Shown here: piece by piece, positions 1,846 through 34,031 of the stretch | Layout: each line of letters opens with the position of its first letter | How positions within the stretch are numbered: position 1 is the first letter of the stretch | IMG/VR virus record: IMGVR_UViG_3300046007_007028 | Location: 1-64,000 of that record | DNA length: 64,000 nt | Origin: a virus | Reading direction: 5' to 3' (one strand) | The notes under the pieces: model-generated | Database searches by the model: none | What the model saw: the letters and a program-made list of their open reading frames with translations, nothing else | What the model was told of the DNA's origin: nothing | Program-made: the position numbers and the translations under genes

Positions 1846-4470
1846 TCATTTCACAAACGACACCACGTCCGTAGTCAGAAAGGTGGTGGCAACGCTACAC
1901 GCATTCTGAAGGGCAACCCTCAAAACCTTTGCGGGGTCAATAATGCCCCTTTCAATCAGGTTGCAGAACTCATCGTTCAAAGCGTCGTAACCCTTACCAT
2001 ATTCATTGTGGTAAATAATTGGCGGGGCGGCCTCACCGTAGGGCTTCTTGCCGGCGTTGTCAGAGATTTGCTTGCTTATGGCCTGAATAGCCATATACAC
2101 GCAGAAAAGGCCCCGCTGGTAGTCGTTGACTATCGTCTTGGGGTTCTCTGCCGCAAGGCCCTTCACCAGCGGAATGTCAATCGGGATGTTGTAACACGCC
2201 CCATTGAAGGTCGCCCCGCTGCCGGCCACGAAGCCCTCTTCGTTTGCAGCCCGACACGCTTTGATGGCATCGTCCACCCTGTCAATCTTTTCCCGGAGTT
2301 CGGTAACACTACCCGCTCCCACCGAAAGCACGGCAACCCCGCAGGAAATGGATGAAATCCGGTCTTTAATCTCCTGCTTCCGGCTGGGGTCGGTTTCCTC
2401 ATCAGCAAGGACGGTAAGACCCGCAACCCTTGTCTGGATAGCCTCGTCGCTTCCACCGCCTTTGATAATAAGGGTATGCCCCAGCCCGATTTCGGCCCGT
2501 TCAGCGCTACCCAAGTGCTCGATGGTGGCGGCCTCCAGCTTAATGTTGCGCTCCTCGGAAATAACCAAGGCCCCAACGTAGGTGGCAAGGTCGGTGGTGT
2601 AATCCTCCATGGCACGACCCTGTCCGGGGCATTGCACCGCACACATTTGAATAACCCCGTTCACGTGGTTTTGAACCACAAACGCAAGGGCCTGCTCGTC
2701 CACCTCTGGAGCAATGATAAGCACGGGGCGCCTCTCCTTTTTAGCCTCATTTGTCTTAAGGACAAGGTTCAAAATCGGGGCAAGCTGCTTTAGCTGCCGC
2801 AAAGGGCGCTCTGAAATCAGGATGTACGGGTTTTCAAGGATGGCAAGGTTGCGCCTTTCGTGCGTAATGAACTCCTTTGCCAAAAGCCCCCTCTGGTGCT
2901 GCATTCCCTCAACCAAGTTGAAAGAGGTTTCCTTACTAACCGACTCCACCACCGAAACAACCCCGTTCTCCCCGGCGGCGTAAGCGGCCTGAGCAATAAT
3001 GTGCCCCAGCTCTTTGTCGTTGTTGCAGGAAATGGTGGCAATCTTTTTGAGCAAATCGAGGTTGCCGCTTACGGGCTTGCTTTTTGAGGCAATGTAGTCC
3101 ACCACGTAGCGGGTCCCGTCAATGATGCCCCGCTTTAATTCGTTGACGTTGACCGTCCCGGTTTTCAGGTACTTAACCCCGTAGCTTACAAGTTCTTGAA
3201 AGAGGATTGCTGAGGTCGATGTGTTGTGTGTTACAATGTAGTTGTCGGTGATATACAGGTTGTCTGGGTTTGTTACCTGAATACATTGCATTTCGGTAAA
3301 CTGCCCCGTCTTTTCTATGTTATATATTGCTAAACCCTTTTTACGACCTTGCCTCTCAAACAATCTGTAAATAGGCGTGTCAGAATAAGAACCGCCCTTT
3401 CTTTTCATCTTTGCAATCTTTGTTTGCTTGCCAAGACTACGGCACAATTCACAAAAATCTTCTGCCAACTGTGGACTGATTGTAGTGAACTCAAAAAGAC
3501 CTCTATTATTCACGTACCCATCAGTATCCATAAGTCCACAAAAAAGACGCTCTCTGGATTCTCTGCTTGAATACAAATAAGACTTTGGAATAAACTTGTT
3601 CCCGCTCCTAACACCAAAGAGCCCTATTTTTTCTAAAAGGGTTTTTATACGAACTCCATTATCATCAATACCAACAAATTTTACTCTGAAATAATTTTTT
3701 CTTTCCACATAGGACGTATTAAAATAAATCCCTTTTGGAAGAATAATTTTATTTAGAACGTGCTCTTTTTGTAGCCCAAGAGATAATTCGATACTGCCGG
3801 TTCCACTAAGGCTTCCATCCCCAAGGAGAAGCCCAATCAAATATGGGTCTAATGGCATTTCGTTTATGTCTTCAGTAAATTCTACTGGAGTAACTGGAAT
3901 GTAAAAGTTCCTGTTTAAAAAACCTCCTTTTTCCATAGAAACCTTTCCGCTATCAACCATTTGCCTAACGGTCATTACTTCTTTTTCTTTCTTGTCTTTT
4001 TGAGTTATACACCACAAATGATCCTCGCAGCATTCAACTATCCTTCCATCGGAGAAATGAATTTTATATATTTCCTTTTGTCCTTTTGGAAAAATTGCTG
4101 CCACATTTTGAATCGTTCCGTCCGTACCACATATCTCATCGCCAACCTGCAATGACCCCATTTCTACAAACCCGGTCGGAGTTAATACTTTTGAGTATAA
4201 TGGCTGTGGGCCGTCACCTGACGCCATAACTGTCTGAAAAGCAACCTCTTTGACAAGGTCGCCCCCGGCTTTTTCGATGGGGTCCTCAAGGAAAATGCTC
4301 CGGGCTACGGTGACCCCGTCCTTACTAATATGCGACGGGCCGGACTGCTTGACCATCATTACGTTTCTACCCCTTGCTCCCAAGGTCTTTCTCACCGCAT
4401 CCGCTGTTTTGTCGATGCCAGCCTTTACCCTGTCACGGGCTTCGTTTCCAAATAGAATTTGATTTTCCAA
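1846..4470 (-). CDS. groEL: Phage chaperonin GroEL interrupted by an intein
   Basis: GroEL (Cpn60) is the ATP-driven folding chamber; phages carry their own copies to fold capsid or tail proteins. The 874-residue precursor contains a 329-residue intein (residues 88-416), so the spliced chaperonin would be 545 residues, close to the usual length. Seen in the exteins: the SKDGVTVA nucleotide-binding motif (Asp51), the split GDGT motif (Asp86, equivalent to Asp87 of E. coli GroEL), the apical-domain core, and EEGFVAGSG near the C-terminus with the catalytic Asp of the preceding VDDA string. The Gly-Gly-Met tail of bacterial GroEL is missing; the protein ends in VVSFVK. GroES is two genes upstream in the same operon. 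Because the insertion lies in the ATP site, only spliced protein could be active. Confidence 0.93.
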   Translation of the reverse strand: MENQILFGNEARDRVKAGIDKTADAVRKTLGARGRNVMMVKQSGPSHISKDGVTVARSIFLEDPIEKAGGDLVKEVAFQTVMASGDGPQPLYSKVLTPTGFVEMGSLQVGDEICGTDGTIQNVAAIFPKGQKEIYKIHFSDGRIVECCEDHLWCITQKDKKEKEVMTVRQMVDSGKVSMEKGGFLNRNFYIPVTPVEFTEDINEMPLDPYLIGLLLGDGSLSGTGSIELSLGLQKEHVLNKIILPKGIYFNTSYVERKNYFRVKFVGIDDNGVRIKTLLEKIGLFGVRSGNKFIPKSYLYSSRESRERLFCGLMDTDGYVNNRGLFEFTTISPQLAEDFCELCRSLGKQTKIAKMKRKGGSYSDTPIYRLFERQGRKKGLAIYNIEKTGQFTEMQCIQVTNPDNLYITDNYIVTHNTSTSAILFQELVSYGVKYLKTGTVNVNELKRGIIDGTRYVVDYIASKSKPVSGNLDLLKKIATISCNNDKELGHIIAQAAYAAGENGVVSVVESVSKETSFNLVEGMQHQRGLLAKEFITHERRNLAILENPYILISERPLRQLKQLAPILNLVLKTNEAKKERRPVLIIAPEVDEQALAFVVQNHVNGVIQMCAVQCPGQGRAMEDYTTDLATYVGALVISEERNIKLEAATIEHLGSAERAEIGLGHTLIIKGGGSDEAIQTRVAGLTVLADEETDPSRKQEIKDRISSISCGVAVLSVGAGSVTELREKIDRVDDAIKACRAANEEGFVAGSGATFNGACYNIPIDIPLVKGLAAENPKTIVNDYQRGLFCVYMAIQAISKQISDNAGKKPYGEAAPPIIYHNEYGKGYDALNDEFCNLIERGIIDPAKVLRVALQNACSVATTFLTTDVVSFVK
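3223..4209 (-). mobile_element. Class 3 intein with LAGLIDADG endonuclease domain, in groEL
   Basis: The intein runs from Pro88 to Asn416 of the precursor; joining the flanks restores ASGDG-TSTSA. Block A reads LTPTGFVEMGSLQVGDEI. Block B (GRIVECCEDHLW) has His at position 10 and Trp at position 12; block F (EMQCIQV) has Cys at position 4; block G (NYIVTHN) has Thr at position 5 before the terminal His-Asn. The first residue is Pro, so there is no Cys/Ser nucleophile. Trp/Cys/Thr plus a missing first nucleophile is the published signature of class 3 inteins. The +1 residue is Thr. Two dodecapeptide motifs, LIGLLLGDGSL (residues 211-221) and LFCGLMDTDGYV (309-320), mark a LAGLIDADG homing endonuclease. 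The stretch is visibly more A/T-rich than the chaperonin halves, as expected of a mobile insert. Confidence 0.93.
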
Positions 4471-4474
4471 TTTT

Positions 4475-5104
4475 TTAAATGTTTAATGATTTCCACTCCA
4501 AAATTTCATCTCCAATCGCCTTTAGCGACCGGTACTTGACCAGAAACCCGTTCTGGTTCTGCCACTCCTGATTCACATACGAAGCACGGCCCCAATACAC
4601 CACCGTCCCAACCGGCAAATGGTCATTAGGCTTGGCCACAATGCCCTTGTCCAAGCAATAATCGTAGGTACTCACCTGCGCTGCCCTTGTCGTGTCAAAG
4701 GACGTTAGCTTCATGGTGGGCTCAATAAGGCCGCTGTGCTTCAGGGGTATTCTTTCGCAAAATATCCATTGCCCCATGGTTCTGCCATCCACTTCAATCA
4801 TGTAGTCCGGGTTGACAAACAGGCACCCGTTCACAAACAGGGAGTCCCGACGGATAGCCGAGTGAGCCTCAAGGAAAGAAAAGATGCCACGTTTTCCCAC
4901 AAGGTCCGGCCAGCGGTCCTGCATGGAAAGTGGGGCTTTGACAATAATCCCCTCTTCGGCAAGCCCCTCTGTTTCCTCGAATAGCTGAGACGGGGAATAA
5001 AGCCTATTCAGCTCCCCCTTGAGAAAGGTGTCGGTCAGGCCGTTCACCTTTACAAGAAAGTGCTTTAAAGGCTGAACCTCGTAGTCAACGTAGCTAATCG
5101 ACAT
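4475..5104 (-). CDS. GroES-like protein between groES and groEL (tentative)
   Basis: A 209-residue protein of the chaperonin operon. The last 60 residues (GTVVYWGRAS, then NQNGFLVKYRSLKAIGDEI) resemble the closing strands of the GroES barrel (GDVVLF, then a strand pair ending in DILAII), and the N-terminus (PLKHFLVKV) resembles the first GroES strand. It could be a diverged co-chaperonin with an enlarged insert, comparable in role to T4 gp31, or a lid partner of the real GroES next door. The similarity is short and judged by eye. Its ATG overlaps the groES stop by 11 bases and its stop lies four bases before groEL. Confidence 0.4.
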   Translation of the reverse strand: MSISYVDYEVQPLKHFLVKVNGLTDTFLKGELNRLYSPSQLFEETEGLAEEGIIVKAPLSMQDRWPDLVGKRGIFSFLEAHSAIRRDSLFVNGCLFVNPDYMIEVDGRTMGQWIFCERIPLKHSGLIEPTMKLTSFDTTRAAQVSTYDYCLDKGIVAKPNDHLPVGTVVYWGRASYVNQEWQNQNGFLVKYRSLKAIGDEILEWKSLNI

Positions 5105-5393
5105 CGGGGAGAACGGCGTGAATAACGTCCTGAAATACGATAAAATATGTTACGCCCTCCCGCTCAAACGGGAACACTCGTTCCTTGGAATACAGAACCA
5201 CGTCGCCCGCTTGAACCAGCATCGGGTCGTCGGGGCGTCCGGGTCCGGTGGCAATAACGGTGGCCCGATGGTTGTATTCCTTTGCGTAGTCGGGGATGAT
5301 AAGGGCCCCAATCTTTTCTTCCTGGTCAGGACGAAGCAGGACCCTTGTCCCCAGCAGGAGCTTTGTCGGTGATGATGATGGTGATTTTTCCAA
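5094..5393 (-). CDS. groES: Co-chaperonin GroES
   Basis: GroES is the heptameric lid of the GroEL chamber. The 99 residues carry the family pattern: first strand GTRVLLRPDQEE (residues 15-26), mobile loop and IIPDYA, the turn ATVIATGPGRP, GDVVLYSK, and the closing strand YFIVFQDVIHAVL. The reading frame has no usable ATG before the conserved core; the only reasonable start is TTG at 5393, which lies inside the upstream HTH gene in another frame. The N-terminal 12 residues (Ser/Pro-rich) are unlike GroES and may not be translated. It is co-transcribed with the intein-containing groEL. Confidence 0.9.
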   Translation of the reverse strand: MEKSPSSSPTKLLLGTRVLLRPDQEEKIGALIIPDYAKEYNHRATVIATGPGRPDDPMLVQAGDVVLYSKERVFPFEREGVTYFIVFQDVIHAVLPDVD

Positions 5394-11389: not shown

Positions 11390-11812
11390 TTATACTTCTT
11401 TGATTGAAATGCCATGCACCTGCTTCATCAGTTTTCGCTTGGCAATATAGGTGCTGAGTTTTTTTGTTGCCTCAGACTTAACATCTTCCACCACCAGTTC
11501 CCCAGTTGCTTGTATTCGGTACACAAAATCGGCAAAATAGGACATTTTGCGTTCACCCTTTTGTGCCGGGACCAGCACAAACTCAACCTGTCGCTCAGGC
11601 AAAGTTATTTCGCCAATTTTCACCAAAAGCATAAGCTCCCGATACCGATTGTACTCTTTTTTGGAGTCAAAAGTCATGCCGTCATACAAGACTTTTTCGT
11701 TGTTATACTTCGCTCGCCTTGCCTTGCCCTTCTTAACTTCAAGCAGATGGCTGTTTTCCGGCCTTTTGGCGGCCTCTGACTTGCGAAACGACTCAATGTC
11801 CCATCCTTTCAT
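11390..11812 (-). CDS. DUF1064-type PD-(D/E)XK protein
   Basis: A 140-residue phage protein of the DUF1064 type. Landmarks: TFDSKKEYNRYRELMLL (residues 47-63), then Asp95 in YFADFVY and EDVK (residues 109-112), which together give the D...(D/E)xK core of the restriction-endonuclease fold. Members sit in phage replication and recombination regions and are thought to act on DNA branches or ends. The first 20 bases overlap the 3' end of the HNH gene upstream, which suggests that the homing gene was inserted against this start. Confidence 0.75.
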   Translation of the reverse strand: MKGWDIESFRKSEAAKRPENSHLLEVKKGKARRAKYNNEKVLYDGMTFDSKKEYNRYRELMLLVKIGEITLPERQVEFVLVPAQKGERKMSYFADFVYRIQATGELVVEDVKSEATKKLSTYIAKRKLMKQVHGISIKEV

Positions 11813-12464
11813 TTGCGTTCGTTGTAGGGGCTAATAGAGGCTTTCGTTGGGCAGCGGGATGATATTTGGCTCCAATTGGCTGTACTTCAATTTTCCAAAT
11901 ATACTTGCCTTTATACATTCTGTTGTCTTTTATGCAGTTCATTACTGTTCTTTGGTTTGTTCCCGTTTGTTTATACAATGATTTAAAGGATTCGTATTCC
12001 TCTAATAAAACCCCGCTAGAATCGTATTTAAAGACTTTAGTTCTTCTGCGAGTTTTTTCTAGGCTTTTTGCATTTTCTCTCCCATGCAGATACCCTAGTT
12101 GCCTCATTCTTTCTGCCGCCTTTTTTCTGGAATTATCCATAATCCCCGTATCAAAAGCGTGTCTCATATTTTCGGACAAGGTAGTCCACTCCAAATTGCT
12201 TGCGCAATTATTCTTTTTGTTGCCGTCTTTGTGATTGACCTGTGGCTTGTTTTCTGGGTTCGGAATAAAATGCAACGCCACTAATCTATGAATTGTTCCT
12301 CTTTTGTTTTTGCCGCCAACCCACATATTAAAATATTCATACCCGTTTTTGCCAAAGTTTGTTTTTGAACTTTTTTGATTTGTTGATCTAAAGTTGCCAA
12401 GGTCTGAAATTTCATAAAGACCGTTTGAGTTTTTTACACTTACCCATTTTTCTTGCGTTTCCAT
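11793..12464 (-). CDS. HNH homing endonuclease with NUMOD4-like N-terminus
   Basis: Residues 5-50 (WVSVKNSNGLYEISDLGNFRS) form the NUMOD4-like DNA-binding part; residues 57-100 carry the HNH_3 core: IHRLVALHFIPNP, QVNHKDGNKKNN, SNLEWTT. The rest is a long basic DNA-binding tail with a second small domain (VFKYDSSGVLLEEYESFKSLYKQ shortened here) of the NUMOD1-like kind. The gene is A/T-rich compared with its surroundings, as expected for a mobile gene. Free-standing; no intron ends are evident. Confidence 0.9.
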   Translation of the reverse strand: METQEKWVSVKNSNGLYEISDLGNFRSTNQKSSKTNFGKNGYEYFNMWVGGKNKRGTIHRLVALHFIPNPENKPQVNHKDGNKKNNCASNLEWTTLSENMRHAFDTGIMDNSRKKAAERMRQLGYLHGRENAKSLEKTRRRTKVFKYDSSGVLLEEYESFKSLYKQTGTNQRTVMNCIKDNRMYKGKYIWKIEVQPIGAKYHPAAQRKPLLAPTTNANERMGH

Positions 12465-30821: not shown

Positions 30822-32078
30822 ATGAAAAACCTCTTTCTCCTCGCAGCCTTCCTGATGGTATTGGGAAGCTGCACACGCAAACTTATCACGCCACAAACCG
30901 ACGAATTGGTTGTAACCTCCGACGAAGTTCCTGGACCACAAGAACTGTCAATGTTCCGCACCGCAAGTGAACCGGATTTCTGGGAACCAACTTACCGAAG
31001 CTACCGGATTGTTCCGTTCTACATCGAAGTTGATTCAATCTACAACGCTCACTGGCGACCTTTTACCGAAGACACGGTAAGAGCCAGATTTGCCAGGATT
31101 GCATGGAACATGGAACGCCAGACGGGACTAAGGTTTACAATTAGCCAAATCAAAATCCTAACCCGCCACGACATTGTAAGCCGTCAGACAAACGGAAATA
31201 ATATGCTGTTTCAGTTTTCATCAACGGTTCCAAGGGTAGGCAACAACTTTATGCTAAGGATCTCAGGACGTTCTGGATTAGGTGGTTCGGCCTTCATATC
31301 CAGAGGAAGCCTGACAACTGCACCATACGCCATTTCTGGCTTCGGCAAAGCGATTGCAGGAGGGTTTGATAAGCCCGGAAACGACGAGTACGCCATTGGC
31401 CACGAAATCCTGCATAACTTGGGAATCTCACATTCCCATAACTGTTGCGAGTGGTACACCAAGGACGGCAGACCATTGGGCAGACTTGATTCAGCAGCAG
31501 CCGGGGAAACAACTTGTTCACCTGTTCCGATCCGTTGTAACAGGACGACCATACGCCAATCGGGAGGCTGGAATAGTTATGCTCATATTTGGGGACAGGC
31601 AACCTACACCCTGCATCCATCGGTATTGGCTAAGCTACATCGGGCCGTGTTTTATTCAAGCCTTCAGACTTATACCCCGACACAACCACCATTACCACCC
31701 GTTACTACTTGCAGCACTCAGGTAGCCCACACATCAGCCACAGGAAGTCATCCGGGCTTTGATAAGGCATTGGATGGTATTGACAACACAAACGCTTCCA
31801 GATGGGTTGTAAATGCCCCACAAACAAGCCTGACCTTGACCTACAACAATGCCAGCGTGGATTGCATCCGGATATGGACAGGGTACTTGTCTGGCTCAAC
31901 ATGGGGCAGCCCAATCAGGCAAGCAATCGTATCGGTAAACGGCACTCAGTTATTAGCCGTTCCTGGTGCTTTGGAGATCAACATTCCGGTTAATCGGGCT
32001 GGGGTGAATACCATTAAGATTGATTTCTTTGCGTTGGATAGCCATGTAAGAATTAGAGAGGTTAGGGTTTTGGATTAG
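30822..32078 (+). CDS. Metzincin-type zinc metalloprotease lipoprotein
   Basis: 418 residues. A signal peptide with lipobox LGSC (Cys17) predicts export and lipid anchoring. The motif HEILHNLGISH (residues 194-204) is the full metzincin zinc site HExxHxxGxxH. The preceding region (60-190) follows the protease N-lobe plan, including a segment that describes a mature-enzyme start around FYIEVD. A Met-turn is not obvious. After a Pro/Thr linker the last 120 residues look like an F5/8C (discoidin) module: FDKALDGIDNTNASRWV and IRIWTGY. It is the longest gene of the early region. Possible roles: attacking host surface proteins, superinfection exclusion, or lysogenic conversion. Confidence 0.85.
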   Translation: MKNLFLLAAFLMVLGSCTRKLITPQTDELVVTSDEVPGPQELSMFRTASEPDFWEPTYRSYRIVPFYIEVDSIYNAHWRPFTEDTVRARFARIAWNMERQTGLRFTISQIKILTRHDIVSRQTNGNNMLFQFSSTVPRVGNNFMLRISGRSGLGGSAFISRGSLTTAPYAISGFGKAIAGGFDKPGNDEYAIGHEILHNLGISHSHNCCEWYTKDGRPLGRLDSAAAGETTCSPVPIRCNRTTIRQSGGWNSYAHIWGQATYTLHPSVLAKLHRAVFYSSLQTYTPTQPPLPPVTTCSTQVAHTSATGSHPGFDKALDGIDNTNASRWVVNAPQTSLTLTYNNASVDCIRIWTGYLSGSTWGSPIRQAIVSVNGTQLLAVPGALEINIPVNRAGVNTIKIDFFALDSHVRIREVRVLD

Positions 32079-33518: not shown

Positions 33519-34031
33519 ATGGATAAGTATTTAAAATTTGTTGAAGCAGGGCTAAGAGTTTCTAAGGATGGAGTAGTCTACGGCAAAAGAGGGAAAGAAA
33601 GAGTATTATTCACCAACAATTCAGGTTATTCAATAACCCATTTTCTATATAAGGGGAATCCCATAAACGTCTTGGTGCATCGACTTGTCGCAATGGCATT
33701 TATCCAAAATCCATTGGGTCTTTCTCAGGTAAACCATATCAACGGGATAAAATCCGACAATCGAGTGGAAAATTTAGAATGGTGCTCTGTGAGCCAAAAC
33801 ATACGTCACAGATTTTCATCTGGCATAACATCTTTGCAATCGCAATCTCGTCCTTCTTTACAAAATGGAAGATGCAGGAAGGTGCACCAAATTAAAAATG
33901 GGGTAATTATTGATACATTCCCTTACATGGTGGCTGCCGCACAAGCTGTTGGCGGCACAGCCTCGTGCATTAGAAATGTTTGTGCTGGTAGGGCTTCATC
34001 GCACAAGGGCTTTCAATGGGAGTACGCTTGA
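33519..34031 (+). CDS. HNH homing endonuclease
   Basis: 170 residues. N-terminal DNA-binding strand region (RVSKDGVVYGKRGK), then VHRLVAMAFIQNP, SQVNHINGIKSDNRVENLEWCS as HNH_3 core (shortened here), and a C-terminal NUMOD1-like part (VHQIKNGVIIDTFPYMVAAAQAVGG shortened). It is a distant relative of the endonuclease at 11793. Oriented against its neighbours and inserted between the holin candidate and the endolysin. No intron ends seen. Confidence 0.9.
   Translation: MDKYLKFVEAGLRVSKDGVVYGKRGKERVLFTNNSGYSITHFLYKGNPINVLVHRLVAMAFIQNPLGLSQVNHINGIKSDNRVENLEWCSVSQNIRHRFSSGITSLQSQSRPSLQNGRCRKVHQIKNGVIIDTFPYMVAAAQAVGGTASCIRNVCAGRASSHKGFQWEYA

Follow-up and report, generated by a model that had tools for sequence, protein, structure and literature searches.

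We found that the gene for a group I chaperonin (GroEL), in a 64,000-base stretch of viral DNA (the window), is interrupted by 329 residues placed within the loop that holds the phosphates of ATP. The best overall explanation, to which we give a probability of about 0.9, is that a mobile class 3 intein, predicted to splice and to home, has entered the phage GroEL between Gly88 and Thr89. In the open-licence literature, to which this statement is confined, no intein turned up for GroEL, the thermosome or another chaperonin; the splicing chemistry is already known, and it is the host protein and the GDG|T site that appear to be unreported.

The interrupted groEL gene and its insert

The features of the groEL region of the window, all encoded on the minus strand, are as follows.
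1846-4470, minus strand: intein-containing groEL precursor gene, 874 aa, TTG start (TIGR02348, 430 bits, E 9e-129)
4210-4470, minus strand: GroEL N-extein, 87 aa, ending in ...MASGDG, with the catalytic Asp87 immediately before the junction
3223-4209, minus strand: class 3 intein, 329 aa, PQPLYSKV...NYIVTHN
4207-4209, minus strand: Pro1, non-nucleophilic first residue of the intein, invariant in 8 of 8 GroEL inteins
4012-4020, minus strand: block B His64-Leu65-Trp66 (B:10 to B:12)
3814-3840, minus strand: LAGLIDADG motif 1, LIGLLLGDG (intein residues 124-132), in an endonuclease fold in the model
3517-3537, minus strand: LAGLIDADG motif 2, GLMDTDG (intein residues 225-231), spanned by Pfam LAGLIDADG_3 and Hom_end
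3283-3285, minus strand: block F Cys309 (F:4), putative first nucleophile, invariant in 22 of 22 aligned rows
3223-3231, minus strand: block G Thr327-His328-Asn329 (G:5 to G:7), invariant in 22 of 22 rows
1849-3222, minus strand: GroEL C-extein, 458 aa, starting with Thr+1 (TSTSAIL)
5094-5393, minus strand: GroES co-chaperonin gene, two genes upstream of groEL (Pfam Cpn10, E 5e-12; phrog_3188)

When joined, the exteins formed a 545-aa GroEL that aligned end to end with solved GroELs (8wuw, E 2e-110, residues 4-540). The precursor passed the cut-offs of two NCBIfam subfamilies but fell short of the one for the TIGR02348 equivalog (430 vs 582 bits), and is therefore a divergent GroEL. Alignment of the joined extein to E. 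coli GroEL showed that Asp52, Asp87, Thr89, Thr91 and Asp398 are retained and that two signature positions are changed, Thr90Ser and Gly415Ser (GGG at 414-416 becoming GSG); the numbering follows what we take to be the E. coli sequence, consistent with the PDB alignment, and places the insert in the GDG-TTT loop. The source record is an IMG/VR virus contig of 72,439 bases, in agreement with its portal, SSB and primase/helicase families, and the portal protein had no match among phage isolates. A second contig, L002 (3300046011_008008), carried a base-identical groEL within 10,470 bases at 99.79% identity, making an assembly artefact unlikely. Between groES and groEL lies a gene for a 209-aa protein (4475-5104, minus strand) with no family match; its candidacy as a second GroES was not supported (hhalign probability 1%; uninformative single-sequence fold, pLDDT 33). 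Elsewhere, the window encodes a phage-borne, lipoprotein-like secreted metalloprotease (30822-32078, plus strand) with a weak Reprolysin_5 match and the motif GHEILHNLGISHSH.

Class 3 inteins are recognized by Trp at B:12, Cys at F:4 and Thr at G:5 (the WCT triad), by a first position without a nucleophile and by Ser or Thr at +1, and also by His at B:10 and a C-terminal His-Asn (PMC5222942, PMC3196547). All of these were found in the insert and at its C-terminal junction. Position 1, with Pro in place of Cys, Ser or Thr, and Thr+1 were the same in all eight GroEL lineages described below. In an alignment of 22 rows, made up of the window intein, a single relative from a GroEL and 20 from other proteins of phages or plasmids, Cys309 and Thr327 were present throughout and Trp66 in 21 rows, and His64 (B:10), His328 (G:6) and Asn329 (G:7) were likewise present in every row. 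Both LAGLIDADG motifs retained the catalytic Asp (GDG and DTDG), and Pfam LAGLIDADG_3 and Hom_end scored above cut-off; the score for Pfam Intein_splicing was under it (15.6 vs 35.8 bits), as could be explained by a divergent class 3 intein. The sequence-only reading had proposed a class 3 intein of 329 residues between GDG and TST, lacking a first-residue nucleophile and carrying the WCT triad and two LAGLIDADG motifs; its coordinates, frame and residues all proved correct, and the predicted fold fits the class 3 assignment.

Structural comparison pointed in the same direction. Among PDB sequences the intein matched gp41-1 and the class 3 DnaB inteins 6rix and 6bs8. Its AlphaFold model (15-row alignment; pLDDT 90.5, pTM 0.88) resembled solved class 3 inteins in Foldseek, as expected of the HINT fold, with the matches including MchDnaB-1 and Msm DnaBi1 (6rix/6riy/6bs8; TM by target length 0.76-0.82 for most chains), whole LAGLIDADG inteins such as PI-SceI, and I-DmoI for the endonuclease part. 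GC3 was 0.35 in the window intein and 0.58 and 0.66 in the exteins, as would fit an intein that came from an AT-rich genome. The insert is more than a chance event, because its GC3 differs from that of the exteins and because seven other lineages share the identical position.

GroEL inteins in other phages and their relatives

Alignment-based scans of IMG/VR revealed the same insert at the GDG|T site in eight phage GroEL lineages on 14 contigs, the window and L002 included; a single-sequence scan gave only two relatives. The precursors added by the scans were L003, L033, L034, L035, L044, L053/L054 (with the near-copies L058/L059) and L055-L057, and every GroEL intein found was inserted at GDG|T and begins with PQPL. 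Thus, the initial proposal of a class 3 intein in GroEL stands but underestimated its extent, since the family occupies at least eight lineages, includes a mini-intein form and has empty-site relatives. The mini-intein, in L044 (IMGVR_UViG_3300033067_001917, positions 3001-3417 of L044), is a natural form of 139 aa that lacks the endonuclease and retains all splicing residues. In L055 (3001-3972), as well as in L056 and L057, the GDG of the first LAGLIDADG motif has become GGV with loss of the catalytic Asp, which is read as endonuclease decay. In addition, L058 and L059 share a one-base frameshift in the intein (about 3201-3225), one extra A in a run of A, where the near-copy L053/L054 is intact; this may be real decay (a pseudogene) or a sequencing error. 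Two pattern scans of cellular genome contigs, capable of detecting only close relatives, yielded no GroEL inteins. No isolate phage record covered 80% of the window precursor in one place, and thus this intein was not seen in the GroEL of any isolate. Isolate phages do carry related chaperonins, with the GroEL/GroES of Cellulophaga phi40:1, Flavobacterium immuto and elemo, and Bacteroides DAC16 showing 35-41% identity to the extein and, in several cases, the two genes lying close together.

The nearest relatives of the GroEL intein are class 3 inteins in P-loop ATPases of phages, such as helicases and terminases (for example, the Eggerthella phage LE2-3 helicase, 36% identity), which share with it the WCT triad, the absence of a position-1 nucleophile, the C-terminal THN, Thr or Ser at +1 and the LAGLIDADG layout. 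All 20 annotated phage or plasmid relatives sampled were inserted after Lys, in almost every case that of a G-K Walker A motif, and 19 begin with Ala, whereas the GroEL inteins follow GDG, start with Pro and form their own clade. The mycobacterial DnaB inteins (6rix/6riy, 6bs8) have the HINT fold and catalytic residues in common with the window intein, but are mini-inteins in a replicative helicase, whereas the window intein bears an endonuclease and resides in a chaperonin. The N-terminal half of the intein was closest by sequence to the class 1 intein gp41-1 (E 2e-10), with which it also shares the block G THN; in its natural form, however, gp41-1 has Cys at position 1 and neither the Trp nor the Cys of the WCT triad, both of which had to be introduced by engineering (PMC7664689). 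In mycobacteriophages the main intein host is the terminase, with a 'classic' site between the Lys and Thr of the P-loop (PMC5050341), and the accessible part of a survey of 1701 class 3 inteins does not list their host proteins (PMC7891396). We also observed endonuclease-bearing class 3 inteins at Walker A in two plasmid-borne ATPases, the conjugation coupling protein TraD of the IncC plasmid pKAZ5 (traD; L022) and a secretion/pilus ATPase of a Miltoncostaea megaplasmid (L021).

Origin, probable homing and empty sites

A tree of 35 inteins, unrooted and built without a class 1 outgroup, united the eight from GroEL in a single clade (support 100/100) against the 27 others and placed this clade among the class 3 P-loop inteins. 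By sequence, the GroEL inteins make up a subfamily of class 3 inteins that is new and specific to one site. Because the other annotated relatives follow Lys, nearly always in a G-K Walker A motif, and mostly start with Ala, the simplest history would be one jump from the Walker A site (GK|T) of phage helicases or terminases into the chaperonin GDG|T loop, the direction of which we infer on an unrooted tree.

The inteins shared 44-57% identity, while their exteins shared 21-41% (21-25% in the lowest pairs). Intein-bearing rows were scattered in the GroEL tree, in which a single clade was rejected (p-AU 4e-63; three rows long-branched). For example, the inteins of L033 and L055 were sisters (99/97), while the GroEL of L055 grouped with those of L062, L063, L003 and L044, and constraining the intein tree to the extein grouping of L003, L044 and L055 was rejected (p-AU 0.012). 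Because the inteins are far more alike than their host GroELs and the trees disagree, the GroEL inteins have probably spread by horizontal homing. The LAGLIDADG domain would probably cut intein-free groEL alleles at the conserved stretch during co-infection, so that the intein is copied between phages. The window also contains two free-standing HNH homing endonuclease genes (11793-12464, minus strand, and 33519-34031, plus strand), one of them NUMOD4+HNH_3, and the phage therefore hosts several homing elements.

Empty sites were common around some of the intein-bearing genes. Among 80 GroELs related to those of L003, L044 and L055, 73 had an empty site, three had the intein and four ended before the site; a plain GDG-T was thus seen in 73 of the 76 scorable related viral GroELs, and the 329 residues were not found as part of an uninterrupted GroEL. 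Their presence in one would, by the sequence-only reading's own terms, have been fatal to its proposal. Two of the empty-site relatives of L055, L062 and L063, share with it the N-terminal flank ARDSSSKTNVEAGDG. The closest empty-site pair had a C-extein identity of only about 58%, and thus no recent homing event was caught; for the groEL of the window itself, no close allele free of the intein was found.

Predicted splicing and its significance

By analogy with the intein family, Cys309 would attack the Gly-Pro1 bond and so become joined to the N-extein by a thioester; transfer of the acyl group to Thr+1 (GroEL Thr89) would follow, cyclization of Asn329 would release the intein, and an O-N shift would restore the native GDG-TST loop in the 545-aa GroEL, which would work with the phage's own GroES. 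An unspliced subunit would be unable to bind or hydrolyse ATP. Because the insert places the catalytic Asp87 and the phosphate-binding Thr89-91 329 residues apart, the phage GroEL is very probably inactive until the intein has been spliced out, and the shared position of the insert makes the same very probable for the GroELs of the other lineages.

A refinement compatible with the mobile, splicing intein is that it is kept to delay activation of GroEL until a cue is received, for example a reducing cytoplasm sensed via Cys309 and the neighbouring Cys60/Cys61. In Msm DnaBi1, likewise a class 3 intein, oxidation acts as an off switch by engaging the block F Cys in a disulfide (PMC6195587), and Cys60 is invariant in the eight GroEL inteins and Cys61 present in seven. 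However, roughly half of the P-loop relatives have Cys60/61 too, so that these residues show no specificity for GroEL, and selfish homing accounts for the distribution with no benefit needed; we therefore regard such a delay as unlikely. Slightly less likely again is the bolder proposal that the GroEL inteins are not merely selfish, with redox-type conditional splicing timing the switch-on of the chaperonin in infection and L044 representing a domesticated switch.

Alternatively, the window's phage may have lost splicing, leaving a dead GroEL in place of which the host GroEL serves the phage. Phages may be able to do without their own GroEL, one class 3 pseudo-intein is on record (Arth_1007; PMC3196547), and the relatives L058/L059 carry the frameshift described above. 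Nevertheless, the reading frame is unbroken and no splicing residue is missing, both in the window and in the seven other lineages; the L044 intein, without its endonuclease, has kept every splicing block, which is best explained by selection for splicing; and the extra A of L058 is possibly a sequencing error. Loss of splicing is accordingly very improbable. That the 329 residues are never excised and serve a modified chaperonin as an accessory domain is scarcely credible, for although the continuous ORF would be translated into a single 874-aa chain, the insert replaces nothing and splits the ATP-site residues, has homologues with identical splice residues in unrelated proteins, has a predicted HINT fold and is only sporadically present in related GroELs.

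Inteins favour ATP-binding sites, and the known set resides mainly in P-loop ATPases. The lineage described here apparently shifted on a single occasion to a phosphate loop of unrelated structure (GDG|T) and then spread across very divergent phage GroELs, adding a class 3 target beyond helicases and packaging proteins. With its empty sites, endonuclease decay and mini-intein, it documents the life cycle of an intein compactly and in nature. The family also supplies new class 3 inteins and mini-inteins for protein engineering, with L044 as a candidate, and annotation pipelines may label intein-bearing groEL genes as broken or fused GroELs. For the phages themselves, a protein-folding machine is predicted to have been made dependent on protein splicing.
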